A program made the position numbers and the translations under genes. Positions 3,177 through 43,520 of a stretch of DNA of 64,000 nucleotides are shown in pieces. The stretch's first letter is position 1. Each line of letters starts with the position of its first letter. Source of the DNA: Fredinandcohnia onubensis (lineage in GTDB: Bacteria > Bacillota > Bacilli > Bacillales > Bacillaceae_L); assembly GCF_031181385.1 (NCBI RefSeq), contig NZ_JAPSKV010000004.1, positions 1-64,000 of the forward strand. Reading direction: 5' to 3'. The notes below the pieces were generated by a model that saw nothing but the letters and a program-made list of their open reading frames with translations, was not told where the DNA came from and ran no database searches.

Positions 3177-5594
3177 ATGAGTTCGGAAGTCGCTTTAAAA
3201 AGACGTATTTGGCCTATAAAGAAAAGATGGAGGGTTATTTTAGTATCAGGAATTATAATCGTCCTCCTTCTAGTCGCAAGTATTTTGGCTGGCTATTTAT
3301 TTTTGAGAAAAAGTTTACCAGAAATTGAAGGGAAAGTTGGTGTTGCTGGTATTACTGATGAGGTTGAAGTGATTCGTGATCAAAATGGGGTTCCCCATAT
3401 CAGTGCAAAAAACACTCATGATCTGTATTTTGCACAAGGATATGTAACAGCTCAGGACCGGTTATTTCAAATGGATCTAAGCCGTAGACAGGCCTCAGGA
3501 CAGCTCAGTGAGGTCATTGGTAGCTCCCTTATTGAGCAGGATAAATATTTTAGAGCTCTTGGGTTACGTAGAGCAGCTAAAATTTCGTACGATGGATACT
3601 CGACAGAAGCGAAGGGTGTCTTACGATCTTATACAGATGGTGTAAATGCTTTTATTAAGGAAGTAAAGGAGAAGAATACATTACCCGTCGAGTTTACTCT
3701 TGCTGGATATGAACCAACTGAGTGGAATCCTATAGACTCGCTCACAATAGGGAAATATATGGCTTATGATTTAGGAGGCCATTATAAAGGGCAAGCCTTT
3801 CGATATTACATGGCACAACACGTATCAGAAGAAAAACTACTTGAATTATTCCCAACATATCCTGAAGACGGGGCAACCGTTCTTCAAGCGATCAAAGAAA
3901 ATCCTGTTGATATTTCCAAAAGTATTGCACAAGCACCTTTTCCAAATGAGTTTAACGGGAGTAATAACTGGGTTGTTAGTGGAGAGAAGTCTGATTCAGG
4001 TATGCCGATTCTAGCGGATGATCCTCATTTAGCATTGGCGACTCCGTCGATTTGGTATGAAACGCATTTACAAAATGACGAGGTAAACGTAAGCGTAAGT
4101 GGTGTCATTTTTGCAGGTGTTCCGGGAATTATATTAGGACGTAATGAACATATTGCCTGGGGGGTTAGCAATGTAGGTCCAGATGTTCAGGATTTATATA
4201 TTGAAAAAAGAAATCCAGAAAATCCAAATCAGTTCGAGTATATGGGCGAGTGGGAGGATGCCACGATCATCGATGAACCAATAAAGGTAAAGGATGGAGA
4301 AACAATTCCTTATCAGGTTCAGTTAACAAGACATGGTCCGATTATTTCTGAATTCACCCATGACCATAGGGAGGAGACAGCTTTAGCTTTAAGATGGACA
4401 GCTCTCGACCCTTCGACTGAGCTTGAAGCGGTGTTGATGTTTAACAAGGCGAAAAATTGGGTTGAATTTAAAGAAGCTCTTACATATTTTCATACCCCGG
4501 CTCAAAATTTTGTTTTTGCGGCTACGGATGGCACCATTGCTTATCGAGCAAATGGCTTAATTCCTATTCGAAAAAAGGGAGACAGCTCGGTACCTGTACC
4601 AGGTTGGACGAATGAATATGAGTGGGAGGGGTTTATTCCATGGGACGAACTCCCAACTATTCTTAACCCGGAGGAAGGTTTTATTTCTACGGCAAATAAT
4701 AAAATTGTAACAGATGATTATCCATACCATATTACAAATACTTGGGCACAGCCATATCGTCAGCAACGTATACGGGATGTCTTTATGAGTAAGAATAAGT
4801 TTTCGGTTGACGATATGCTTCAACTACAGTTTGACCAACATAATTTGCAGGCGGAGGAATTTGTACCAATTCTTCTTGATGTATTAACAAGCCAGAAAGG
4901 TAAGCTAAGAGAAATCGATAAAGAAGTTTTAAAGCAGTTTGAAGGATGGGACTTTGTGGATCGTATAGAAGACGGAGAGCCTCTAGTCTTTCATAAATGG
5001 ATGGAGGAATTCGGGAATGTATTGTTTGAAGAATCTATTCCAAATGAAATTGATAACTTGTTCGAAGGTAAATCCCAAATTGTAGACCAAATGATTAGAA
5101 ATGCTACAAATGGAGTCGAAGGTGTATGGTTGAGTGAAGCTGGTGGCTTAGAGCAGGTAAGTCTAGAGTCATTTAAACGAGCTGTTGATTTTGCTGTTAA
5201 ACAACAAGGGGAGCATCCAGATAAATGGCAATGGGGTGAATTTCATAGGGTCCCTTTTAATCATCCGTTGTCAGCAATTTCACCGTTAAACTTTCTATTT
5301 AATCATAATGAATTTGTTCCTATGGGCGGTAGTGGAGTATCGGTAGCTGCTGCAAGTTTTAATAAAAAATCAGGTGCGATAACACACGGAGCTGCATGGC
5401 GTTCAGTAATTGACCTATCAAACATGAATCAAAGCTATAATGTGGTAGGCCCAGGGCAATCTGGTCATGTATTAAGTCGATTCTATCATGATCAAATTAC
5501 TGATTGGACGACAGGGAAATATCATATCACTCATACTGAAAAAGAGAAATTTAAGAAAAATAGTTATAGGCTTCTTTTACAACCAATAAAGTAA
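3177..5594 (+). CDS. penicillin acylase family protein (N-terminal nucleophile hydrolase)
   Basis: 805 aa, full length for the penicillin G acylase/cephalosporin acylase family, which hydrolyses amide bonds such as acyl side chains of beta-lactams or N-acyl homoserine lactones. A membrane anchor lies at residues about 18-42. The alpha-chain region follows, then the conserved maturation site with motif GSNNWV: Ser262 would become the N-terminal nucleophile of the beta chain after self-cleavage. The motif DDPHL just downstream is also typical. Start ATG follows AAGGGGG by 7 bases. The unit is monocistronic, ending at a bidirectional hairpin. The substrate cannot be told from sequence; quorum-signal or cell-wall acyl amides are as plausible as beta-lactams. 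Confidence 0.9.
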   Translation: MSSEVALKRRIWPIKKRWRVILVSGIIIVLLLVASILAGYLFLRKSLPEIEGKVGVAGITDEVEVIRDQNGVPHISAKNTHDLYFAQGYVTAQDRLFQMDLSRRQASGQLSEVIGSSLIEQDKYFRALGLRRAAKISYDGYSTEAKGVLRSYTDGVNAFIKEVKEKNTLPVEFTLAGYEPTEWNPIDSLTIGKYMAYDLGGHYKGQAFRYYMAQHVSEEKLLELFPTYPEDGATVLQAIKENPVDISKSIAQAPFPNEFNGSNNWVVSGEKSDSGMPILADDPHLALATPSIWYETHLQNDEVNVSVSGVIFAGVPGIILGRNEHIAWGVSNVGPDVQDLYIEKRNPENPNQFEYMGEWEDATIIDEPIKVKDGETIPYQVQLTRHGPIISEFTHDHREETALALRWTALDPSTELEAVLMFNKAKNWVEFKEALTYFHTPAQNFVFAATDGTIAYRANGLIPIRKKGDSSVPVPGWTNEYEWEGFIPWDELPTILNPEEGFISTANNKIVTDDYPYHITNTWAQPYRQQRIRDVFMSKNKFSVDDMLQLQFDQHNLQAEEFVPILLDVLTSQKGKLREIDKEVLKQFEGWDFVDRIEDGEPLVFHKWMEEFGNVLFEESIPNEIDNLFEGKSQIVDQMIRNATNGVEGVWLSEAGGLEQVSLESFKRAVDFAVKQQGEHPDKWQWGEFHRVPFNHPLSAISPLNFLFNHNEFVPMGGSGVSVAAASFNKKSGAITHGAAWRSVIDLSNMNQSYNVVGPGQSGHVLSRFYHDQITDWTTGKYHITHTEKEKFKKNSYRLLLQPIK

Positions 5595-5597
5595 CAA

Positions 5598-5628
5598 GAA
5601 AGCAGTGGAAGATTCCACTGCTTTTAAT
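5598..5628. terminator. bidirectional terminator, acylase/yteA
   Basis: Perfect inverted repeat AAAGCAGTGGAA / TTCCACTGCTTT with a 2-base centre, T-rich on both strands, between two convergent genes. Confidence 0.9.
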
Positions 5629-6384
5629 TTAATCCTGGGCTTCATCTTGTGTGTAAGGTTCTTTTTCATATGGAGGAAGGTCTCCGAACATGGTCATGAT
5701 TCCTTCTTCATCTAATACTTCTTCATATCGTTCATGCTGGTTGTTTGGATAGATGATAATTTCTTTCCCTTCGATATCTGTTGCGACGAAGTTTTCGTAA
5801 TCCTCTACATAGCCCACATTTTCATCTGATTCGAGGAATACTTCATTATAACTATCAACTGGGTCAGCAAGGTCTGAAGGAGTTTCAGATGTTCCATACT
5901 TTGCGACATCTTGCCATGAATCTTCTGCATCATAGGAAACATTATCTTCCTCATCAACAAACTTTCCAAATGGTGGCATTAATACCCCTTCCTCAATAGG
6001 TCGATTATGAGATACGACTTGGGTCGGGCTGTGCTCAACACAATATGTTGTGGTAGGAATTGCTTCTAACCGATCAACAGGTATTTCCTTACCGCATTTC
6101 TCACATTTCCCGTATCTACCTTCAGCAATTGCTTGTAAGGCGTAGTCAATGTCTTTTAACTCTTTTTCAATATGCTCATTAAGTGCAATGTCCTTTTCGC
6201 GTTCATATAGCTCAGTTCCTTCATCCCCTGGATGGTTATCATAAGAGGAGAGTTCCCCCATCGAACCATGGAAATGACCGCGTTCTAAATCAAAATGATC
6301 GCTATCTGTTAGTTGTTCTTCAACCTCTTTTTTTGCGTTTATCAACTGTGAACGGAAGGTTGATAATTGCTCATTTGATAACAT
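5629..6384 (-). CDS. yteA: YteA family DksA/TraR-type zinc-finger regulatory protein
   Basis: 251 aa. The N-terminal half is an alpha-helical coiled coil like that of DksA. A zinc-ribbon motif CEKCG...YCVEH follows at about residues 105-130; the fourth ligand position is His instead of Cys, as in other YteA proteins. The acidic C-terminal tail is specific to the Bacillus YteA family (TIGR02890, described as sporulation-linked). The start is ATG 6384, 8 bases after AAGGAG; an upstream in-frame ATG would overlap the ribosome site. Family and gene order are clear; target and role in transcription are not shown by the sequence. Confidence 0.88.
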   Translation of the reverse strand: MLSNEQLSTFRSQLINAKKEVEEQLTDSDHFDLERGHFHGSMGELSSYDNHPGDEGTELYEREKDIALNEHIEKELKDIDYALQAIAEGRYGKCEKCGKEIPVDRLEAIPTTTYCVEHSPTQVVSHNRPIEEGVLMPPFGKFVDEEDNVSYDAEDSWQDVAKYGTSETPSDLADPVDSYNEVFLESDENVGYVEDYENFVATDIEGKEIIIYPNNQHERYEEVLDEEGIMTMFGDLPPYEKEPYTQDEAQD

Positions 6385-6495
6385 GAAAAGCACTCCTTCC
6401 ATAATGATTTCGTAACGAATCTTGTTATGTATTATTTACATAAACACGAAAATCATAAATGTAAAAAAGTGCTTGTATGAAAGAAGACAAAAGAA

Positions 6496-6523
6496 AAACA
6501 CGATCTTAAAAAATCGTGTTTTT
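6496..6523 (-). terminator. menA terminator
   Basis: AAACACGAT / ATCGTGTTT hairpin overlapping the menA stop codon; on the minus strand it is followed by TTTTTCTTTTG. Confidence 0.85.
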
Positions 6524-7457
6524 AAAAGAAGTGACCGATAAAGATTCCGATAGATAAAAGGAAACCAAAAAATGTATTTGTTTGGGCGGTTGCCTTCATC
6601 GCTGGCATCATTTGGATTGGCTCTGATTTACCAATAAAACCAATTATCGCTTGAACGGCTTTTGGAACACTTACCAATACAAGTAGGCTCCACCATGACG
6701 CTATTCCCATAAATGACAATGCAATAATCCAGACATATGAAATAATAAACAATACCGCTAAGAACTTAATCGCATTTTTTCTTCCTAATAAAATCGGTAA
6801 GGTACGACGTCCGTTCTTTTTGTCGCCATCTAAATCACGAATATTGTTTGACATATTAATGGCACCAACAAGGATCATTATTGGAATTGAAATTAAAATA
6901 CTTGTTGAAGTAACAGTACCCGTTTGGATGAAAAACGATATTAAAATAATAATCATACCCATAAAGAAACCAGCTGCAAGCTCTCCAAAAGGTGTTGATG
7001 AAATTGGGAATGGGCCACCTGTATATAAATAACCAACAGACATACATATAGTCCCCACTAATGCTAACCACCAGCTACTATTCATACTAATATAAACACC
7101 TAAAAGTGTGGCAATTCCCATAAAGGCAAATGCCAAGTTTATGATCACTTTTGGCTTTACTCCATCTCTAACAATTGTCCCACCAATACCGACTGATTCA
7201 GCGGTATCAAGACCGCGTTTATAATCAAAATACTCATTAATCATATTAGTTGCTGCTTGAATGAGAAGACAAGCAAGTAACATTGTTAAGAATAATGCCA
7301 TGTTTATAGATGTATCTGGAAGTGCAAGAACTGTTCCTAGAATAACTGGAACAAAGGATGCAGTTAGTGTATGTGGACGCATAAGTCTCCACCATACTTG
7401 AAACCCATTTGAAGGCTTTTTAGATAGCTTCTGATTTGACTGAAGTTCTGTATGCAT
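6522..7457 (-). CDS. menA: 1,4-dihydroxy-2-naphthoate polyprenyltransferase MenA
   Basis: 311 aa UbiA-family membrane prenyltransferase that joins 1,4-dihydroxy-2-naphthoate to a polyprenyl diphosphate, giving demethylmenaquinone. The first Asp-rich motif is seen at about 71-84 (NMINEYFDYKRGLD) and the second near 205-220 (NNIRDLDGDKKNGRRT), with about eight or nine membrane helices. Start ATG follows GAGGAGA. It is divergent from menF, so all menaquinone head-group and prenylation steps except the final MenG/UbiE methylation are encoded at this locus. Confidence 0.95.
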   Translation of the reverse strand: MHTELQSNQKLSKKPSNGFQVWWRLMRPHTLTASFVPVILGTVLALPDTSINMALFLTMLLACLLIQAATNMINEYFDYKRGLDTAESVGIGGTIVRDGVKPKVIINLAFAFMGIATLLGVYISMNSSWWLALVGTICMSVGYLYTGGPFPISSTPFGELAAGFFMGMIIILISFFIQTGTVTSTSILISIPIMILVGAINMSNNIRDLDGDKKNGRRTLPILLGRKNAIKFLAVLFIISYVWIIALSFMGIASWWSLLVLVSVPKAVQAIIGFIGKSEPIQMMPAMKATAQTNTFFGFLLSIGIFIGHFF

Positions 7458-7825
7458 TAGACTTCTCCTCTCACGTCATATCATGTATATCCAAAGTTCA
7501 GTTTAGTGAATTGGACAAGTACTGTCAATGGTTTAATGTAACAAAAAAGACATAATCATTCTTCCCATGATTTAATCCCCAGGCTAACATAACTCTCAAA
7601 ACATAATAATAAGGAAGTAAGTGGTCATAGTGCGGGTAGGTATGGTAGAATCAAGTTTGTTGACAACTATTCGTTATGAGGTATATCGTAGCATTTGATT
7701 TATTTAATCAAAGAAAAATTATCGGATTATTACACTAAGGGTAAATATACGTAAATGATATACTATAATGATATACTATTTCTAAAGTAAAATTTATTAT
7801 GGGATACACTTCGGGGGGATATAAG
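7458..7825. promoter_or_regulatory. divergent menA/menF promoter region with 13-bp tandem repeat
   Basis: This 368-bp gap has no gene. A perfect tandem duplication of AATGATATACTAT lies at 7754-7766 and 7767-7779; it places a TATAAT hexamer (7764-7769) across the junction, 57 bases before the menF start, but without a good -35. A TTGACA lies about 165 bases upstream of menF with only a poor -10. No known operator was recognised. Confidence 0.5.
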
Positions 7826-9223
7826 TTGGTCATGATACAACAAAAAGGATTGAAGGATTACATAGAGAAAGGAATGTTCCGTTCAAGGGAGCTTTCAAAG
7901 CCGATACTTGTAAGTCAGGTTAGAGAGATAGAGAACATAGACCCCCTATTGTTCTTTTCTACTGGGAAAAAAGAAACGTTTGAAACGCGATGTTTCTGGT
8001 CCAATCCAACAAATGATACGATAATTGTTGGACTTGGAGAAGCCTATACAATTAGCGATAACGAGTCTACAGAACGTTTTGTTGCAATAGAAGAAGAGTG
8101 GAAAAAACTCGTTTACAATGCGATTATAGTGGATGATTTCGCACCATATTCTACAGGGCCAATTTTAATGGGAGGCTTTTCATTCGATCCATTAAAAAAG
8201 AGAACAGTGCTGTGGAATCATTTTGATGATGCAAAATTTGTCTTACCTACGATTATGCTTTCTGTCTATAAAGGAAGCACTTATTTAACCACAAATATTA
8301 TTTGTGAGCCTACAGGAACAACTTTTGTTGAATCTGATTTAGAACAATTAGAAGGACTGCTTGAGAGAAATCCAAAAGACCTAATAAGCACTTCCTTTAC
8401 GAAAGAAGAAGTCCAACCAAAGGAATGGATGGAATCTGTTCGAAATGCAACAAAAAAGGTACAGGCTGGCCAGGTTGAAAAGGTCGTATTAGCAAGAGAA
8501 ATTAAACTGCATTTTGATAAGCCAATTGAAACAGACGCCATTTTAGCACGTCTAAAAGAAGAGCAACCAATGAGTTATTTATTTGCAATTGAATACGGAG
8601 ATTCATGTTTTATCGGAGCTTCACCTGAGCGTCTCATTAAGAAAAAAGGTGGAGAATTTTTAACGACTTGCTTAGCAGGTTCGATACGACGTGGCAAAAC
8701 ACCTTCTGAAGATGAACAATTAGCTAATGAATTACTTAGTGACCGGAAAAATCTATATGAACATGATGTTGTTGTACAAATGATTAAAAATGCGATGAAA
8801 GAATCTTGTATAAGCATCTCTTCACCAACACAACCTGATATCTTAAAAATGCGAGATATCCAACATTTATACACACCTGTAAGAGGGGTAGCAAAAGAAA
8901 ATGTGTCATTGCTTACTGTTGTGGATCGACTACATCCAACTCCAGCCCTTGGAGGACAACCTAAACATAAGGCCTATGAAATTATTCGTGAGCTTGAGGT
9001 TCTAGACCGTGGTTGGTACGGAAGCCCAGTTGGTTGGTTAGATACGAAAGATAATGGAGAATTTGCCGTTGCCATTCGTTCTGGGCTAATAAATAGCAAC
9101 AATGCATCCTTATTTGCTGGATGTGGAATTGTAGGAGATTCAGTACCAGAAAGTGAATATACAGAAACTATGATTAAGTTTAGACCGATGCTATCCGCAC
9201 TAGGAGGCTTAGACAATGAATAA
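7826..9223 (+). CDS. menF: isochorismate synthase MenF
   Basis: 465 aa from the proposed TTG start. Converts chorismate to isochorismate, the first committed step of menaquinone synthesis. The chorismate-binding domain occupies the C-terminal half, with conserved SYLFAIE, GASPERL, CLAGSIRRG, HPTPALGG and AVAIRSGL motifs. TTG 7826 is chosen because GGGGGG lies 7 bases before it; ATG 7832 is also in reach, whereas an in-frame ATG at 7799 has no ribosome site and lies upstream of it. It overlaps menD by 8 bases, so the two are translationally coupled. Confidence 0.95.
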   Translation: MVMIQQKGLKDYIEKGMFRSRELSKPILVSQVREIENIDPLLFFSTGKKETFETRCFWSNPTNDTIIVGLGEAYTISDNESTERFVAIEEEWKKLVYNAIIVDDFAPYSTGPILMGGFSFDPLKKRTVLWNHFDDAKFVLPTIMLSVYKGSTYLTTNIICEPTGTTFVESDLEQLEGLLERNPKDLISTSFTKEEVQPKEWMESVRNATKKVQAGQVEKVVLAREIKLHFDKPIETDAILARLKEEQPMSYLFAIEYGDSCFIGASPERLIKKKGGEFLTTCLAGSIRRGKTPSEDEQLANELLSDRKNLYEHDVVVQMIKNAMKESCISISSPTQPDILKMRDIQHLYTPVRGVAKENVSLLTVVDRLHPTPALGGQPKHKAYEIIRELEVLDRGWYGSPVGWLDTKDNGEFAVAIRSGLINSNNASLFAGCGIVGDSVPESEYTETMIKFRPMLSALGGLDNE

Positions 9224-10964
9224 TGAAGCATTAACTCGGTATGTAGCATCATTTGTTGATGAATTAGTCCAAGTGGGTGTCACAGAGGCCATTGTGAGCC
9301 CTGGCTCCCGCTCTACCCCGATGGCAATATTAATGGCAGAACATCCTGATATGAATGTTACAATAAATATTGATGAACGATCATCAGCTTTTTACGCGCT
9401 TGGGGTAGCTAAAGCCACCAAAAAGCCTGTAGCGATCCTTTGTACATCTGGGACTGCAGCAGCAAATTATTTTCCGGCTATAGTGGAGGCCTATTATTCA
9501 AGGGTACCGCTAATTGTGTTGACAGCGGACCGACCACATGAATTGCGCGATGTTGGTGCACCGCAAGCCATAGACCAGAACCAGTTATATGGTAATCATG
9601 CGAAATGGTTTGTAGAAATGGCGCTACCTGAAGATTCTGAGCAAATGTTGGCTTATGTCAGAACAATGGCAGGAAGAGCAGCGGGTACAGCACAATCAGC
9701 TCCTGCAGGACCGGTCCATCTGAACTTTCCTTTTCGTGAGCCGCTCACACCAAACCTCGGTCTTGATCATCTTTGGGGTACAAGCAAAATGGCTAAGAAA
9801 AATGTTAATGTCGTTGTTGGTAAACCGACAATGGACGAGGAACAAGCTCAACTGATAAGTGATGTAGTCAGTGAAAAACTGAAGGGAATTATTGTATGTG
9901 GTTCACATGATCATTCTGAGTTTGGACATGCTGTAGCTAATCTAGCAGAAACTCTTCAATTTCCAATACTTGCGGACCCACTATCCCAACTGAGAAGTGG
10001 TACACATCCTAAATCATACATAGTAGATGGGTATGATGCTTTTTTACGTAACGAAGAGTTCCGAGAAGCTTATAAACCAGACATTATTATTCGATTTGGA
10101 GCAATGCCTGTCTCTAAGTCGCTTCTACAATATATTCAAAAACAAAAAAACACACAACAAATCGTTGTAGATGGGGACGGTGGATGGAGAGATCCTACTT
10201 TATCAGCAACCGATATGGTTTACTGTGATGAAATAGAATTCTGTCAGGCGATTACGAAACGAATTCAGAAACGTAGTGATAATGGTTGGATAAGTTCTTG
10301 GATTAAAATAAATGAGATAGTAAAAGAAAATATCAACGCGGTACACCAAGAAGAGACCTTATTTGAGGGGAAGGTATTTACTGAACTTCAAGAAATCCTG
10401 CCAAATGGTTCTACTTTATTTGTCGGAAACAGTATGCCAATTCGGGACCTTGATACTTTCTTTACAAATAATGAAAAGTCGATACATACACTAGGAAACC
10501 GAGGAGCCAATGGAATTGATGGACTTGTTTCAACGGCAATGGGCATTAGTTCGCAAAATGAACATACGGTTCTAGTGATTGGTGATCTTTCCTTCTACCA
10601 TGATTTAAATGGATTATTAGCAGCAAAACATCATCATTTAAATAGTACGATCGTGTTAATTAATAATGACGGTGGCGGTATATTTTCTTTCTTACCACAA
10701 TCACAGGAAGAAAAGCATTTTGAAACACTGTTTGGTACGCCAATCGGGCTTGATTATGAACATGTCGTAAAAATGTATGGCGGGCAGTTTACTAGTATTG
10801 AGAATTGGGCGGAATTCCGAAAAGCCATATCTGCTTCATTAAATGGTAATGGACTTCATGTTGTAGAAGTAAAAACAAACCGTCAAGAAAATGTCATGAT
10901 TCATCGAAAAATGTGGAATAATGTTTCCCAGGAAATAAAAAACCTGCTTAAAAAGGAACAATAA
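9216..10964 (+). CDS. menD: 2-succinyl-5-enolpyruvyl-6-hydroxy-3-cyclohexene-1-carboxylate synthase MenD
   Basis: 582 aa thiamine-diphosphate enzyme that adds the succinic semialdehyde unit from 2-oxoglutarate to isochorismate. N-terminal pyrimidine domain contains SPGSRSTPM; the C-terminal ThDP-binding domain has GNSMPIRDLD and the GDLSFYHDLNGL...NNDGGGIF motif. The length is typical. Start ATG lies 8 bases after AGGAGG inside menF. The menH start follows 2 bases after its stop. Confidence 0.97.
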   Translation: MNNEALTRYVASFVDELVQVGVTEAIVSPGSRSTPMAILMAEHPDMNVTINIDERSSAFYALGVAKATKKPVAILCTSGTAAANYFPAIVEAYYSRVPLIVLTADRPHELRDVGAPQAIDQNQLYGNHAKWFVEMALPEDSEQMLAYVRTMAGRAAGTAQSAPAGPVHLNFPFREPLTPNLGLDHLWGTSKMAKKNVNVVVGKPTMDEEQAQLISDVVSEKLKGIIVCGSHDHSEFGHAVANLAETLQFPILADPLSQLRSGTHPKSYIVDGYDAFLRNEEFREAYKPDIIIRFGAMPVSKSLLQYIQKQKNTQQIVVDGDGGWRDPTLSATDMVYCDEIEFCQAITKRIQKRSDNGWISSWIKINEIVKENINAVHQEETLFEGKVFTELQEILPNGSTLFVGNSMPIRDLDTFFTNNEKSIHTLGNRGANGIDGLVSTAMGISSQNEHTVLVIGDLSFYHDLNGLLAAKHHHLNSTIVLINNDGGGIFSFLPQSQEEKHFETLFGTPIGLDYEHVVKMYGGQFTSIENWAEFRKAISASLNGNGLHVVEVKTNRQENVMIHRKMWNNVSQEIKNLLKKEQ

Positions 10965-10966
10965 CT

Positions 10967-11785
10967 ATGTTTATTTCATCAAGCGGGGTTACTTATCATG
11001 TGCAAGTGATGGGAGAAGGCGAACCGATTGTGTTCCTCCATGGTTTTACAGGTAGTATAGCAAATTGGAGCAGAGCAACCGAGCCACTTCATAAAAGTTA
11101 TCAATGTATTTTTATTGATATAATCGGACATGGAGAGACAGATAGTCCTGATGATTTTTCAAGATATCATATAGAAACTGTTGCTAAAGATATCATCCAT
11201 ATTCTTGATACCTTAGTTATCCCAAAAACTCATATTGTTGGTTACTCCATGGGAGGAAGACTAGCTTTGGCCACTTCTATTCTTTATTCAACTAGAGTAA
11301 CTAGCCTCGTACTAGAGAGTAGTTCTCCAGGATTAAGAACAGAAGAAGAGAGAGCTGCTCGTAGAAAATCAGATGAGCAACTGGCAAATCGAATTGAGCA
11401 AGAGGGAATCCAAGGTTTTATTGATTTTTGGGAGAAGATCCCGTTATTCTCTTCACAACAGGCACTAACGAAAGAAAGTCAACTAGAAATACGTAAACAA
11501 CGTCTTAAAAATAATCCAGTCGGTTTAGCTAATAGTCTTAAGGGGATGGGGACTGGTTCTCAACCCTCATACTGGGATAGACTAAATGAGCTTAACCTAC
11601 CAACTTTATTGCTTTGTGGAGAGCTTGACCAAAAGTTTTGCAGGATTGCTGAAGAGATGAGTTTAAGCATTCAAAATGCAAAAGTGGAGAAAATAGTAGA
11701 GGTTGGACATGCAATTCATGTGGAACAACCACATTTTTTTGGTAAAATAATAAATGAGTTTGTTTCTGATCATTTTTCTCAATGA
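10967..11785 (+). CDS. menH: 2-succinyl-6-hydroxy-2,4-cyclohexadiene-1-carboxylate synthase MenH
   Basis: 272 aa alpha/beta hydrolase-fold protein (YtxM in B. subtilis) that removes pyruvate from the MenD product. Oxyanion region HGFTGS at 25-30, nucleophile elbow GYSMGG with Ser94, acid in GELDQKF near 217 and His in VGHAIH near 244 form the triad. The ribosome site AAGGAAC lies in the end of menD. Location within the men operon makes the assignment firm. Confidence 0.93.
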   Translation: MFISSSGVTYHVQVMGEGEPIVFLHGFTGSIANWSRATEPLHKSYQCIFIDIIGHGETDSPDDFSRYHIETVAKDIIHILDTLVIPKTHIVGYSMGGRLALATSILYSTRVTSLVLESSSPGLRTEEERAARRKSDEQLANRIEQEGIQGFIDFWEKIPLFSSQQALTKESQLEIRKQRLKNNPVGLANSLKGMGTGSQPSYWDRLNELNLPTLLLCGELDQKFCRIAEEMSLSIQNAKVEKIVEVGHAIHVEQPHFFGKIINEFVSDHFSQ

Positions 11786-19280: not shown

Positions 19281-19325
19281 AAAAAGGAAGGTAGCATTAA
19301 TGTTCATGCTTACCTTCCTTTTTTT
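19281..19325. terminator. bidirectional terminator, YtkA-like/yidD
   Basis: AAAAAGGAAGGTA...TACCTTCCTTTTT inverted repeat with A-run before and T-run after, overlapping the yidD stop codon. Confidence 0.88.
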
Positions 19326-19536
19326 CGGGTACAAAGTCAATCCCACCTGGATGGAGGGGATGACATTTTAATAAACGTTTAATGGTCAGCCAACCACCCT
19401 TAAATGCACCAAAGCGTTTAATAGCTTCAAGGCCATATTGGGAACAAGTCGGGTAAAAGCGACAAGTTGGCGGTTTTAATGGGGATATAAATCTTTGATA
19501 GAAACGAATAACACCTATAAACAACGCTTGAAGCAA
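19297..19536 (-). CDS. yidD: membrane protein insertion efficiency factor YidD
   Basis: 79 aa. Short membrane-associated protein of the YidD family (YtjA in B. subtilis) that aids YidC/Sec-dependent insertion. The signature [22 protein letters not shown] is intact, as is CHPLHPGG. The start is TTG; AAGGGA lies 11 bases upstream, a loose fit. The stop lies in the shared terminator. Confidence 0.93.
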
Positions 19537-19713
19537 TTTTTTCTACTTCCCTTACTTAGTTTACGTACTTATACTATACTATAGGGAGTAAATAAAAGCA
19601 TCTGTAAAGGTAGTCCAAAAAGTCACGTGAATGTAATTCATCGAATTTCTTCCAATTCAAATTAAATTGATGAAAAAAATCGGAATTAGCGTTATGATAG
19701 ATATAAATGCGGG

Positions 19714-19853
19714 TACAAAAAGGAGAGTGAAAAGGACCGAGAAGTTCTAGGCGGCTCAGTTTTGAGTACCGGAGCGTATGCAGTTAATACGTGAGGACCG
19801 GAGAAACAAGCCAACGAAGAAATTAGAAGTGTCATTTTCGGTCGACTTTTTGT
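19714..19853 (+). ncRNA. structured leader / candidate novel RNA upstream of luxS
   Basis: A 140-bp segment folds on itself: TACAAAAAG 19714-19722 pairs with CTTTTTGTA 19845-19853; GACCGA 19735-19740 with TCGGTC 19838-19843; TTCTAG 19745-19750 with TTAGAA 19823-19828. Inside are hairpins CGG-CTCA-GTTT-TGAG-TA-CCG (19752-19771) and CGTAT-N7-ATACG (19775-19791). It does not match S-box, T-box or other leaders that I know. The right arm CTTTTTGT could act as a weak terminator, which would make it a luxS attenuator. A mobile RNA-forming repeat of the Bacillus bcr kind is an alternative. Confidence 0.6.
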
Positions 19854-19887
19854 AATCCTCTATAAGTTTATTTAGGGAGTGAAGAGA

Positions 19888-20361
19888 ATGCCATCAGTAG
19901 AAAGCTTTGAACTAGATCATTGTGCAGTTAAAGCTCCGTATGTAAGACATTGTGGTGTACACAAGGTAGGTACAGATGGAGTTGTAAATAAGTTTGATAT
20001 TCGTTTTTGTCAGCCAAACAAACAAGCGATGAAGCCAGATGTTATTCATACACTTGAACATTTATTAGCTTTTAACCTTCGTGAGCATTGTGAGAAATAT
20101 AATCACTTTGATATTATTGATATCTCTCCTATGGGATGTCAAACAGGTTATTATTTAGTAGTGAGTGGGGAACCAACAGTTTCTGAAATTATTGACTTAT
20201 TAGAAGCTACAATGCAAAGTGCCTTAGAAATTACAGATATCCCTGCAGCGAATGAAACTCAATGTGGTCAAGCGAAGCTTCATGACTTAGAAGGAGCAAA
20301 GCGTCTCATGCGTTTTTGGCTAACACAATCAAAAGAAGACCTTCATAAGGTTTTTGGATAA
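19888..20361 (+). CDS. luxS: S-ribosylhomocysteine lyase LuxS
   Basis: 157 aa, exactly the family length. Cleaves S-ribosylhomocysteine to homocysteine and DPD, the precursor of autoinducer-2, in the activated methyl cycle. Metal ligands His54 and His58 (HTLEH) and Cys near 126 (QCGQAK) plus the catalytic Cys in MGCQTGYY are intact. Start ATG 19888 follows AGGGAGTG; the first annotated-looking upstream codon lies inside that site. metK in the same window supplies S-adenosylmethionine to the same cycle. Confidence 0.97.
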
Positions 20362-20363
20362 AA

Positions 20364-20394
20364 AAAGGACCTCAGCCACTAGGGCTGAGGTTTT
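20364..20394 (+). terminator. luxS terminator
   Basis: ACCTCAGCC / GGCTGAGGT hairpin followed by TTTTA; it overlaps the end of the convergent amidase gene and could serve both strands. Confidence 0.85.
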
Positions 20395-30511: not shown

Positions 30512-30729
30512 TCTCTTATCCCGAGCTGGCGGAGGGACAGGCCCAATGAAACCCGGCAACCATCACTTTTCTTACATAACAAATGTTTTTTTGTGAAACC
30601 TATTAGTAGGTCTCACATTCAAAAAAGTGATAAGGTGCTAACCTGAGCAAGGTATGACCTTGATCGATAAGAGTGAAAGGCTGGATAAACGATAAACCTT
30701 TCCTCAAAAAAAGTGGGAAAGGTTTTTTA
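30512..30729 (+). promoter_or_regulatory. SAM-I riboswitch (S-box) with terminator
   Basis: CTCTTATC at the 5' end pairs with GATAAGAG near 30667-30674 (P1). Conserved core CGAGCTGGCGGAGGGAC, GGCCC and GAAACCCGGCAACC is present, with an enlarged P3 arm around 30564-30631. The terminator AAACCTTTCC 30694-30703 / GGAAAGGTTT 30716-30725 plus T-run follows. S-adenosylmethionine binding should stabilise termination and lower metK expression. Confidence 0.96.
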
Positions 30730-43264: not shown

Positions 43265-43520
43265 TAATGAAGCGTTGAAAAGGAGTAGTAATGTTCTACA
43301 CACGTGTTAGAGAGTTGACGGGTGGTGCAAGTCAATCGTTGATGAACATGAACTCGCCTTTGAGCAATAAGCATGAACTGCAAATGTGCAAATTAGTGCT
43401 TGTCGTATGATCCGCGTTAAGGGTGAATGAAGTGAGTGCACAATTTGTCACTAATGTGGGTGGTACCGCGGGAAGAATACATATCCTCTCGTCCCTTTTG
43501 GGATTAGGGGTTTTTTGTTT
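43265..43520 (+). promoter_or_regulatory. T-box riboswitch, leucine type
   Basis: Stem I contains the specifier CTC (43353-43355, Leu) within GAACTCGCC; the T-box GGGTGGTACCGCG lies at 43458-43470; a T-rich terminator region follows at about 43483-43520. Uncharged tRNA-Leu should favour the antiterminator and leuS expression. Confidence 0.95.

Follow-up and report, generated by a model that had tools for sequence, protein, structure and literature searches.

The structured RNA that fills the leader of luxS in the stretch of Fredinandcohnia onubensis DNA that we analysed (64,000 nucleotides, referred to here as the window) very probably arose by insertion of a non-autonomous, MITE-like element of ~154 bp, and is not an RNA that is specific to luxS. 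The element is multicopy, most of its tested insertion sites are empty in a sister species, and 5 bp of target DNA with the form TNNNA are duplicated when it inserts. By analogy, it appears to work in the way that a MITE or a small interspersed repeat such as bcr1 or BOX does. A search of a limited literature collection by name and by 14-base core strings found the element named nowhere, and as far as that literature was searched this family of mobile structured repeats is unnamed.

The insert in the luxS leader

The complete copy of the element occupies 154 bp of the plus strand (19707-19860) with boundaries that are set by the empty site in relative G002 and by the target duplications. It scores 154.4 bits with R1, a covariance model built from 23 F. 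onubensis copies without inserts (alignment A2). The copy is flanked by TATAA on both sides, at 19702-19706 and again at 19861-19865 (both plus strand). The left TATAA fits the TNNNA form of 61 other copies and is present as a single copy in G002 (GATATAAAGTTT), and the right one was placed by alignment with G002, relative to which there is one A fewer to the right of the insertion. An earlier note on this DNA had placed the structured segment at 19714-19853; these coordinates do lie within the element, the true ends of which are located outside of them. On the 5' side of the insertion there is an intact -10 box of the luxS promoter, TATGAT (19693-19698, plus strand), which follows ATGAAA with a spacing of 17 nt, and a by-eye comparison of four luxS loci in gene orientation shows that CGTTATGATA is also located 5' of luxS in G002, G014 and G016. 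The gene whose leader received the element (19888-20361, plus strand) is taken to be luxS, coding for S-ribosylhomocysteinase, on the basis of the earlier note and general knowledge, and its protein is 87-99% identical in 16 relatives. A minus-strand ORF at 19297-19536 is presumably yidD-like, judging from its sequence and general knowledge.

The 140 nt from 19714 to 19853 are predicted to form a single nested fold with a minimum free energy of -41.2 kcal/mol, the outer stem of which is ACAAAAAG paired with CTTTTTGT. Shuffled versions of this segment have a mean of -28.6 (sd 3.0), which gives the native fold a z of -4.17 with 0 of 200 shuffles equally good, although the fold is weaker when flanks are included (19704-19920; z -1.5, 16 of 200 shuffles equally good). 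The structured RNA that the earlier note described in the luxS leader is thus a real fold. Its list of one outer and two inner stems is only partly correct, as the comparative structure has seven helices. Among these, the outer helix P1a contains the 5' arm of the terminal inverted repeat (19714-19722), which pairs with the 3' arm (CTTTTTGT, 19846-19853) in both the fold and the comparative structure. The 5' strand of helix P1b, covarying helix 2, is at 19728-19737 and has changes on both sides in seven of nine pairs. Helices 6 and 7 form the inner hairpin P5 + P6 (19766-19799), in which two P5 pairs are found in all four Watson-Crick forms. All of these features are on the plus strand.

With Rfam 15 at gathering scores there is no family that matches the luxS leader, and a permissive search gave only chance-level matches to three eukaryotic families (E 1.4 to 5.8). 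The segment therefore has no existing Rfam family match, in agreement with its earlier description as unrecognised. The same is true for the statement that it is not an S-box, as the covariance model for the SAM riboswitch (RF00162) finds nothing at luxS and has its sole match in the window at 30513-30673. The T-box model (RF00230) also finds nothing at luxS, and its sole match in the window is a leader at 43266-43499 (133 bits). The luxS leader thus differs from both of these regulators, which are present elsewhere in the window, in matching neither and in having no link to one pathway. In regards to other RNAs of the window, there is a Bacillaceae-1 RNA (RF01690, 30862-30928) located 3' of the SAM riboswitch, and 17 tRNA genes form a plus-strand array (53-1864).

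The 3' strand of the outer stem, CTTTTTGT, had been proposed as a sequence that could end transcription. In a consensus scan the only terminator-like sites lie 3' of luxS, at 20366-20394 and on the reverse strand of that stretch, and the U run is paired in the fold, so this role was rejected. The luxS copy also has stops in all three sense frames. On the minus strand, one frame is open through the whole copy (19707-19860). An element-encoded antisense peptide was considered and the frame was judged to be non-coding, because many other copies, compared by eye, carry a one-base gap within it that shifts the frame.

Copies, ends and empty sites

With blastn, 43 matches were obtained in the F. onubensis genome at E ≤ 10; 30 of them, including the copy in the window, are at E ≤ 1.4e-17. 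R1 at E ≤ 1e-4 yielded 38 matches in this genome, and the eight other genomes of the genus have 13-38 each. As an alternative to a regulator, the earlier note had considered an interspersed RNA-forming repeat of the Bacillus type, for which a model search giving many matches unlinked to luxS would speak. The search did give many unlinked matches, and this alternative is correct. Across the order the distribution is patchy: in an even sample (E ≤ 1e-6 and stricter filters) the element occurs in 27 of 150 genomes, representing 17 of 83 genera. Named genomes were scanned with a pattern, which gave at least 103 stretches, and carriers among the matches listed include Oceanobacillus, Cytobacillus, Priestia, Evansella, Sporolactobacillus, Virgibacillus, Lentibacillus, Sporosarcina, Lederbergia and Fredinandcohnia, as well as others. 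In the 3.7-Mb genome G048, the end pattern with at most one mismatch has 239 matches versus 4 for a reversed control, which indicates perhaps 100 or more copies. The strand order of these G048 ends is one-sided, which is probably an effect of the order in which they were listed; it was dismissed because both strands appear in the order-wide sample search.

Plasmid and phage collections searched at E 1e-5 contained no copy, and 44 loci retrieved from viral contigs with three patterns gave no R1 match at E ≤ 1. A plasmid or phage origin was rejected given the lack of a match in either collection. This lack also weighs against the MITE-like account, as it is unusual for a transposable element.

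The consensus ends, GTGCGTGTTCAAAAAG and GAGGATGTTCAAAAAG, are short inverted repeats that are alike at 13 of 16 positions as judged from base counts, and within the luxS copy a deletion leaves TACAAAAAG as the stretch that is common to both ends. A perfect 5-bp duplication is present at 58 of the 86 named copies that have locatable ends (out of 96 near-full copies given), as compared to 13.7 expected from mismatched flanks. The same is observed for 11 of the 26 F. onubensis copies with locatable ends (27 given), where 2.4 are expected. For the 61 of 96 named copies that have exact end motifs, the duplication is 5 bp with the form TNNNA. Its middle three bases agree across the two sides in 80-93% of these copies versus 42-50% expected, and the T...A frame is fixed directly outside GTGCGTGTTCAAAAAG... 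and ...CTTTTTGAACATCCTC. When the joined flanks of 22 F. onubensis copies were searched in two sister genomes, 20 of the 22 exhibited a spanning alignment in at least one sister locus. Specifically, 18 of these are without the element and two contain end remnants (L013 against G001 and L023 against G002), and the copies L006 and L016 gave no resolved site. Split matches suggest that some sites carry the element in one sister and lack it in the other.

The copies are located mostly between genes. With a first ORF caller this is the case for 27 of 28 F. onubensis copies, with L027 being located within a 130-aa ORF. Relative to random placement in the same gaps, as assessed with a crude ORF caller and joined flanks, copies are over-represented 5-35 nt 5' of a start codon, with 12 of 21 F. 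onubensis copies (6.0 expected, sd 1.7) and 29 of 78 named copies (20.3 expected, sd 3.2) at this distance. Note that this test left out the copies within ORFs, many of which may be spurious ORFs (7 of 28 F. onubensis and 13 of 92 named copies), as well as 3 of 95 named copies near locus ends and one named copy that had no ORF beside it. The excess near start codons is modest. Of the 41 copies near start codons in all, 25 have the orientation of the gene and 16 are antisense to it. Given the excess and the mixed orientation, the element appears often to join a 5' leader without a fixed orientation.

The element is also variable in its interior. Profile matches of many named copies break at recurrent places, and extra hairpins are found at three junctions, one following GGACC, one separating P4 from P5, and one preceding the 3' strand of P2. 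Module sequences were hand-picked from the broken matches and four of them were folded alone; compared by eye, like modules are present at different junctions in different species. Positions of modules in the covariance-model alignment, which forces them into loops, were left out. In the F. onubensis genome, four copies contain an insert module (L016, L025, L027 and L029), and two others, L032 and L033, have kept both ends and have a different middle. What distinguishes copy L025 from its orthologue in G001, L074, is exactly one double-hairpin module of 57 nt (GTCGAC...CATCCTGTG), which indicates that modules are gained or lost in place. A profile HMM also detected a relative of ~330 nt, L272, on the minus strand (2627-2296) of viral contig IMGVR_UViG_2848043816_000001, which has the same ends and a longer, divergent interior. 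This relative suggests that ends and interior may evolve partly independently.

When compared with known repeats, the element is like MITEs, such as RUP, in its inverted ends, target duplication, multiple copies, empty sites and absence of sense coding. Unlike MITEs, its interior is conserved, with compensatory changes as well as a strand bias, a parent insertion sequence sharing its ends was not found, and it is not AT-rich, having a GC content of 0.455 versus 0.381 in the window. AT-richness is given as a usual MITE feature (PMC3049150), and it is for this reason that we use the label 'MITE-like'. The same paper describes BOX of Streptococcus pneumoniae as having end parts that pair, inner modules that are absent or repeated, a predicted folded RNA, and a scatter across the chromosome (PMC3049150). 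Compared by these descriptions, BOX and the luxS-leader element are both composite with paired ends and variable inner modules. However, in BOX it is the number of tandem boxB modules that varies, whereas the luxS-leader element has different hairpin modules at several core junctions, and the two differ in host order.

A further comparison is with bcr1 of the B. cereus group, of which the luxS-leader element could be a member or a close homologue. In the papers that describe it, bcr1 is a MITE-like, intergenic repeat of ~150 bp with tens of copies per genome, a predicted fold and sites in UTRs (PMC6542083, PMC3446304, PMC2267715), and mobility of the bcr1 type is linked with an AT-rich 5-bp motif, TTTAT (PMC6542083, PMC3446304). 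By description, the two are thus alike in size class, tens of copies per genome, fold, UTR sites and the presence of an AT-rich 5-bp motif. However, the first BCR element is described as restricted to the B. cereus group (PMC6542083), whereas many other Bacillales genera carry the luxS-leader element, and the duplication of the latter is TNNNA, which is AT-rich but not TTTAT. On these descriptions we consider membership in bcr1, or close homology to it, to be unlikely.

A folded interior and the search for a mobiliser

We examined the interior using 74 standard-length sequences, consisting of five F. onubensis copies and 69 of 114 R1 matches that are full length and without inserts. The comparative structure has 42 pairs in seven helices that are paired in 94.4% of 3104 cells, with the full pairing of P6 being partly automatic from the pattern that was used to search for named copies. 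This compares to 87.6% in column shuffles, which ignore relatedness, and to 34-47% with slid partners, over which the structure is favoured by being partly derived from the tested sequences. Double-change cells number 189 versus 55.5 +/- 5.8 when shuffled, and 22 of the 42 pairs have changes on both sides versus 13.4 +/- 1.7 when shuffled. For example, the consensus pairs 54-85 and 56-83 each occur as U-A, C-G, G-C and A-U. The inner loop was also considered as a kink-turn or sarcin-ricin motif, which was dropped because the pair concerned takes all four Watson-Crick forms.

Given that the structure is partly self-derived and that the shuffles ignore relatedness, a strand test was added in which G.U and A.C mismatches are compared, with changes counted on a tree. 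In this test an A.C mismatch corresponds to a G.U on the opposite strand. Over all inner pairs there are 50 G.U versus 13 A.C (p 3e-6), a difference that is inflated because the search pattern for named copies, which fixes bases in P6 and nearby, allows pair 61-79 to yield G.U but never A.C. When the pairs touched by the pattern are removed there are 32 G.U versus 11 A.C (p 0.002). An independent set of 49 F. onubensis and congeneric copies has 25 G.U versus 7 A.C (p 0.002), or 16 versus 3 with the reduced pairs. The sense fold is also lower than that of the complement in 73 of 74 and in 49 of 49 copies. The terminal helix, in which there are few changes, shows no clear bias, with 9 G.U versus 12 A.C and, in the independent set, 7 versus 4. 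In our reading, what is maintained in the interior is a single strand of nucleic acid, for which RNA is the simplest candidate, and the ends, where the numbers are small, are maintained as DNA.

Conservation of individual copies was followed in six orthologous comparisons that involve five F. onubensis copies, those among the 30 loci fetched. Two of the six have an element that is 100% identical across two species (L008/L064 and L014/L053) beside flanks that are only 91-97% identical. We take L008/L064 to be located between hisD and hisB, and L014/L053 to be in a sugar ABC transporter operon. A third comparison shows 95% identity in the element versus 86% in the flanks, and in the remaining three the element is about as diverged as the flanks. 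This small sample hints that some copies are kept. Complete identity of the element beside a flank divergence of 3-9% also exceeds what is predicted for a freely decaying insertion, and in this regard it weighs against the MITE-like account.

The luxS insertion could be a domesticated one that by chance gives useful control of luxS, through attenuation or stability, in its own lineage. It has an intact -10 box on its 5' side and the ribosome-binding site on its 3' side, and so should be transcribed, and copies elsewhere are more conserved than their flanks in three of the six comparisons. However, the luxS copy is common to none of the 16 relatives tested, so its conservation cannot be shown. 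It is also not specially preserved, as 21 of the 38 F. onubensis matches score higher than its 154 bits (up to 178), and there is no terminator-like signal within the element. Domestication at luxS is thus very unlikely.

The strand asymmetry and the covariation of the interior would also fit a bacterial SINE-like element that moves via RNA by reverse transcription, which would explain selection on the sense-strand RNA. However, no RVT_1 reverse transcriptase was detected at E ≤ 1e-5 in the F. onubensis genome, in G001 or in G008, yet F. onubensis copies are present at sites that are empty in the sisters. Furthermore, the element has inverted terminal repeats and a fixed 5-bp TNNNA duplication, and this combination is typical of a DNA transposase. 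We therefore regard movement by reverse transcription as highly improbable.

For the MITE-like account a transposase with matching ends would be expected, and none was found in the families examined in the F. onubensis genome, which is a further point against this account. Specifically, the single PF01609 transposase of this genome has the inverted repeat CCACTAGCTTTGCA instead, with ends that do not match those of the element. No matching end motif was found for three rve-domain (PF00665) proteins, which by our reading are IS6-like, IS3-like and a Tn7-like TnsAB fusion, or for two broken Y1 (PF01797) genes. The scope of this search was 3-kb loci for the IS6- and IS3-like proteins and the two broken Y1 genes, and 16 kb for the Tn7-like TnsAB-TnsC cluster on contig C12, where the one exception is a TTTTGAACA. 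The latter cluster (L240, contig C12, 46000-62000; ~3655-11370 within the locus) contains a 905-aa TnsA-TnsB-type ORF that has a weak rve match below the family cut-off. We take the cluster to be Tn7-like from this ORF together with a TnsC-like ATPase and TniQ-like ORFs. Ahead of it are two ORFs (374 and 750 aa) that are possibly cargo. Finally, an end-pattern search of five genomes gave no obvious long pair among the matches listed, where by eye only short-spaced pairs were seen.

luxS, and what the element may be doing

We specifically addressed whether the element is tied to luxS by fetching luxS from 17 genomes of the family and searching each locus with R1. The element is present at 1 of the 17 luxS loci, which is that of the window itself. 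In G002 the luxS leader reads ...GTTATGATAGATATAAAGTTTATTTAGG... without the element, and in G001 the joined flanks of the luxS insertion align across the site with the element absent. Conversely, there is no luxS on the other F. onubensis, congeneric or named element loci searched. The neighbours of other F. onubensis copies presumably include hisD/hisB, a sugar ABC transporter and aspS, from our reading of the sequences. The ligand- or tRNA-gated switch on luxS that the earlier note had put forward, that is a riboswitch or T-box-like cis-regulator that evolved for this gene and senses a SAM-cycle metabolite or a tRNA, would account for the leader position and for the strongly folded, covarying structure, but it is exceedingly improbable given that 16 of 17 luxS loci are without the element, that the same RNA adjoins unrelated genes with 16 of the 41 start-codon copies being antisense, and that Rfam has no match. 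Thus, the fold in front of luxS is real, a luxS-specific switch is not supported, and the locus is an insertion of a mobile structured repeat.

For a MITE-like insertion of this kind, a putative DDE-type transposase would act in trans by recognising the ends and moving the element. The interior would be selected as RNA, either in that its transcript aids spread or in that a compact, self-closed fold is tolerated in mRNA leaders. At luxS the insertion landed a few bases 3' of the intact -10 box, and consequently the 5' leader of luxS should now consist mostly of the element. If luxS is affected at all, be it in leader length, in mRNA stability or through mild attenuation, this would probably be a side effect in this lineage and not a response to a ligand.

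A further reading, which is possible but which we hold only tentatively and with more doubt than belief, is that this is an undescribed two-layer mobile family found throughout the Bacillales, with DNA-type ends, an interior selected as a sense-strand folded RNA, and exchangeable hairpins. The RNA would be a working part of the element, and the element would be an RNA-dependent parasite that prefers sites just 5' of ribosome-binding sites.

These results correct a tempting false lead, as the strong fold in front of luxS is unrelated to luxS. They also describe a widespread mobile family with no Rfam 15 match, the copies of which can be mistaken for numerous distinct 'new leader RNAs' when Bacillales genomes are annotated. 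For finding the mobilising enzyme, material is at hand in the TNNNA duplications, the empty sites and the exchanges of modules, and G048 is a good system in which to find it. The comparison of G.U with A.C indicates a folded single strand, and with it the need for RNA in a short mobile repeat becomes testable. If the two-layer reading is true, then the RNA may be needed for transposition, for tolerance of the element in mRNA leaders, or for the binding of a host factor.
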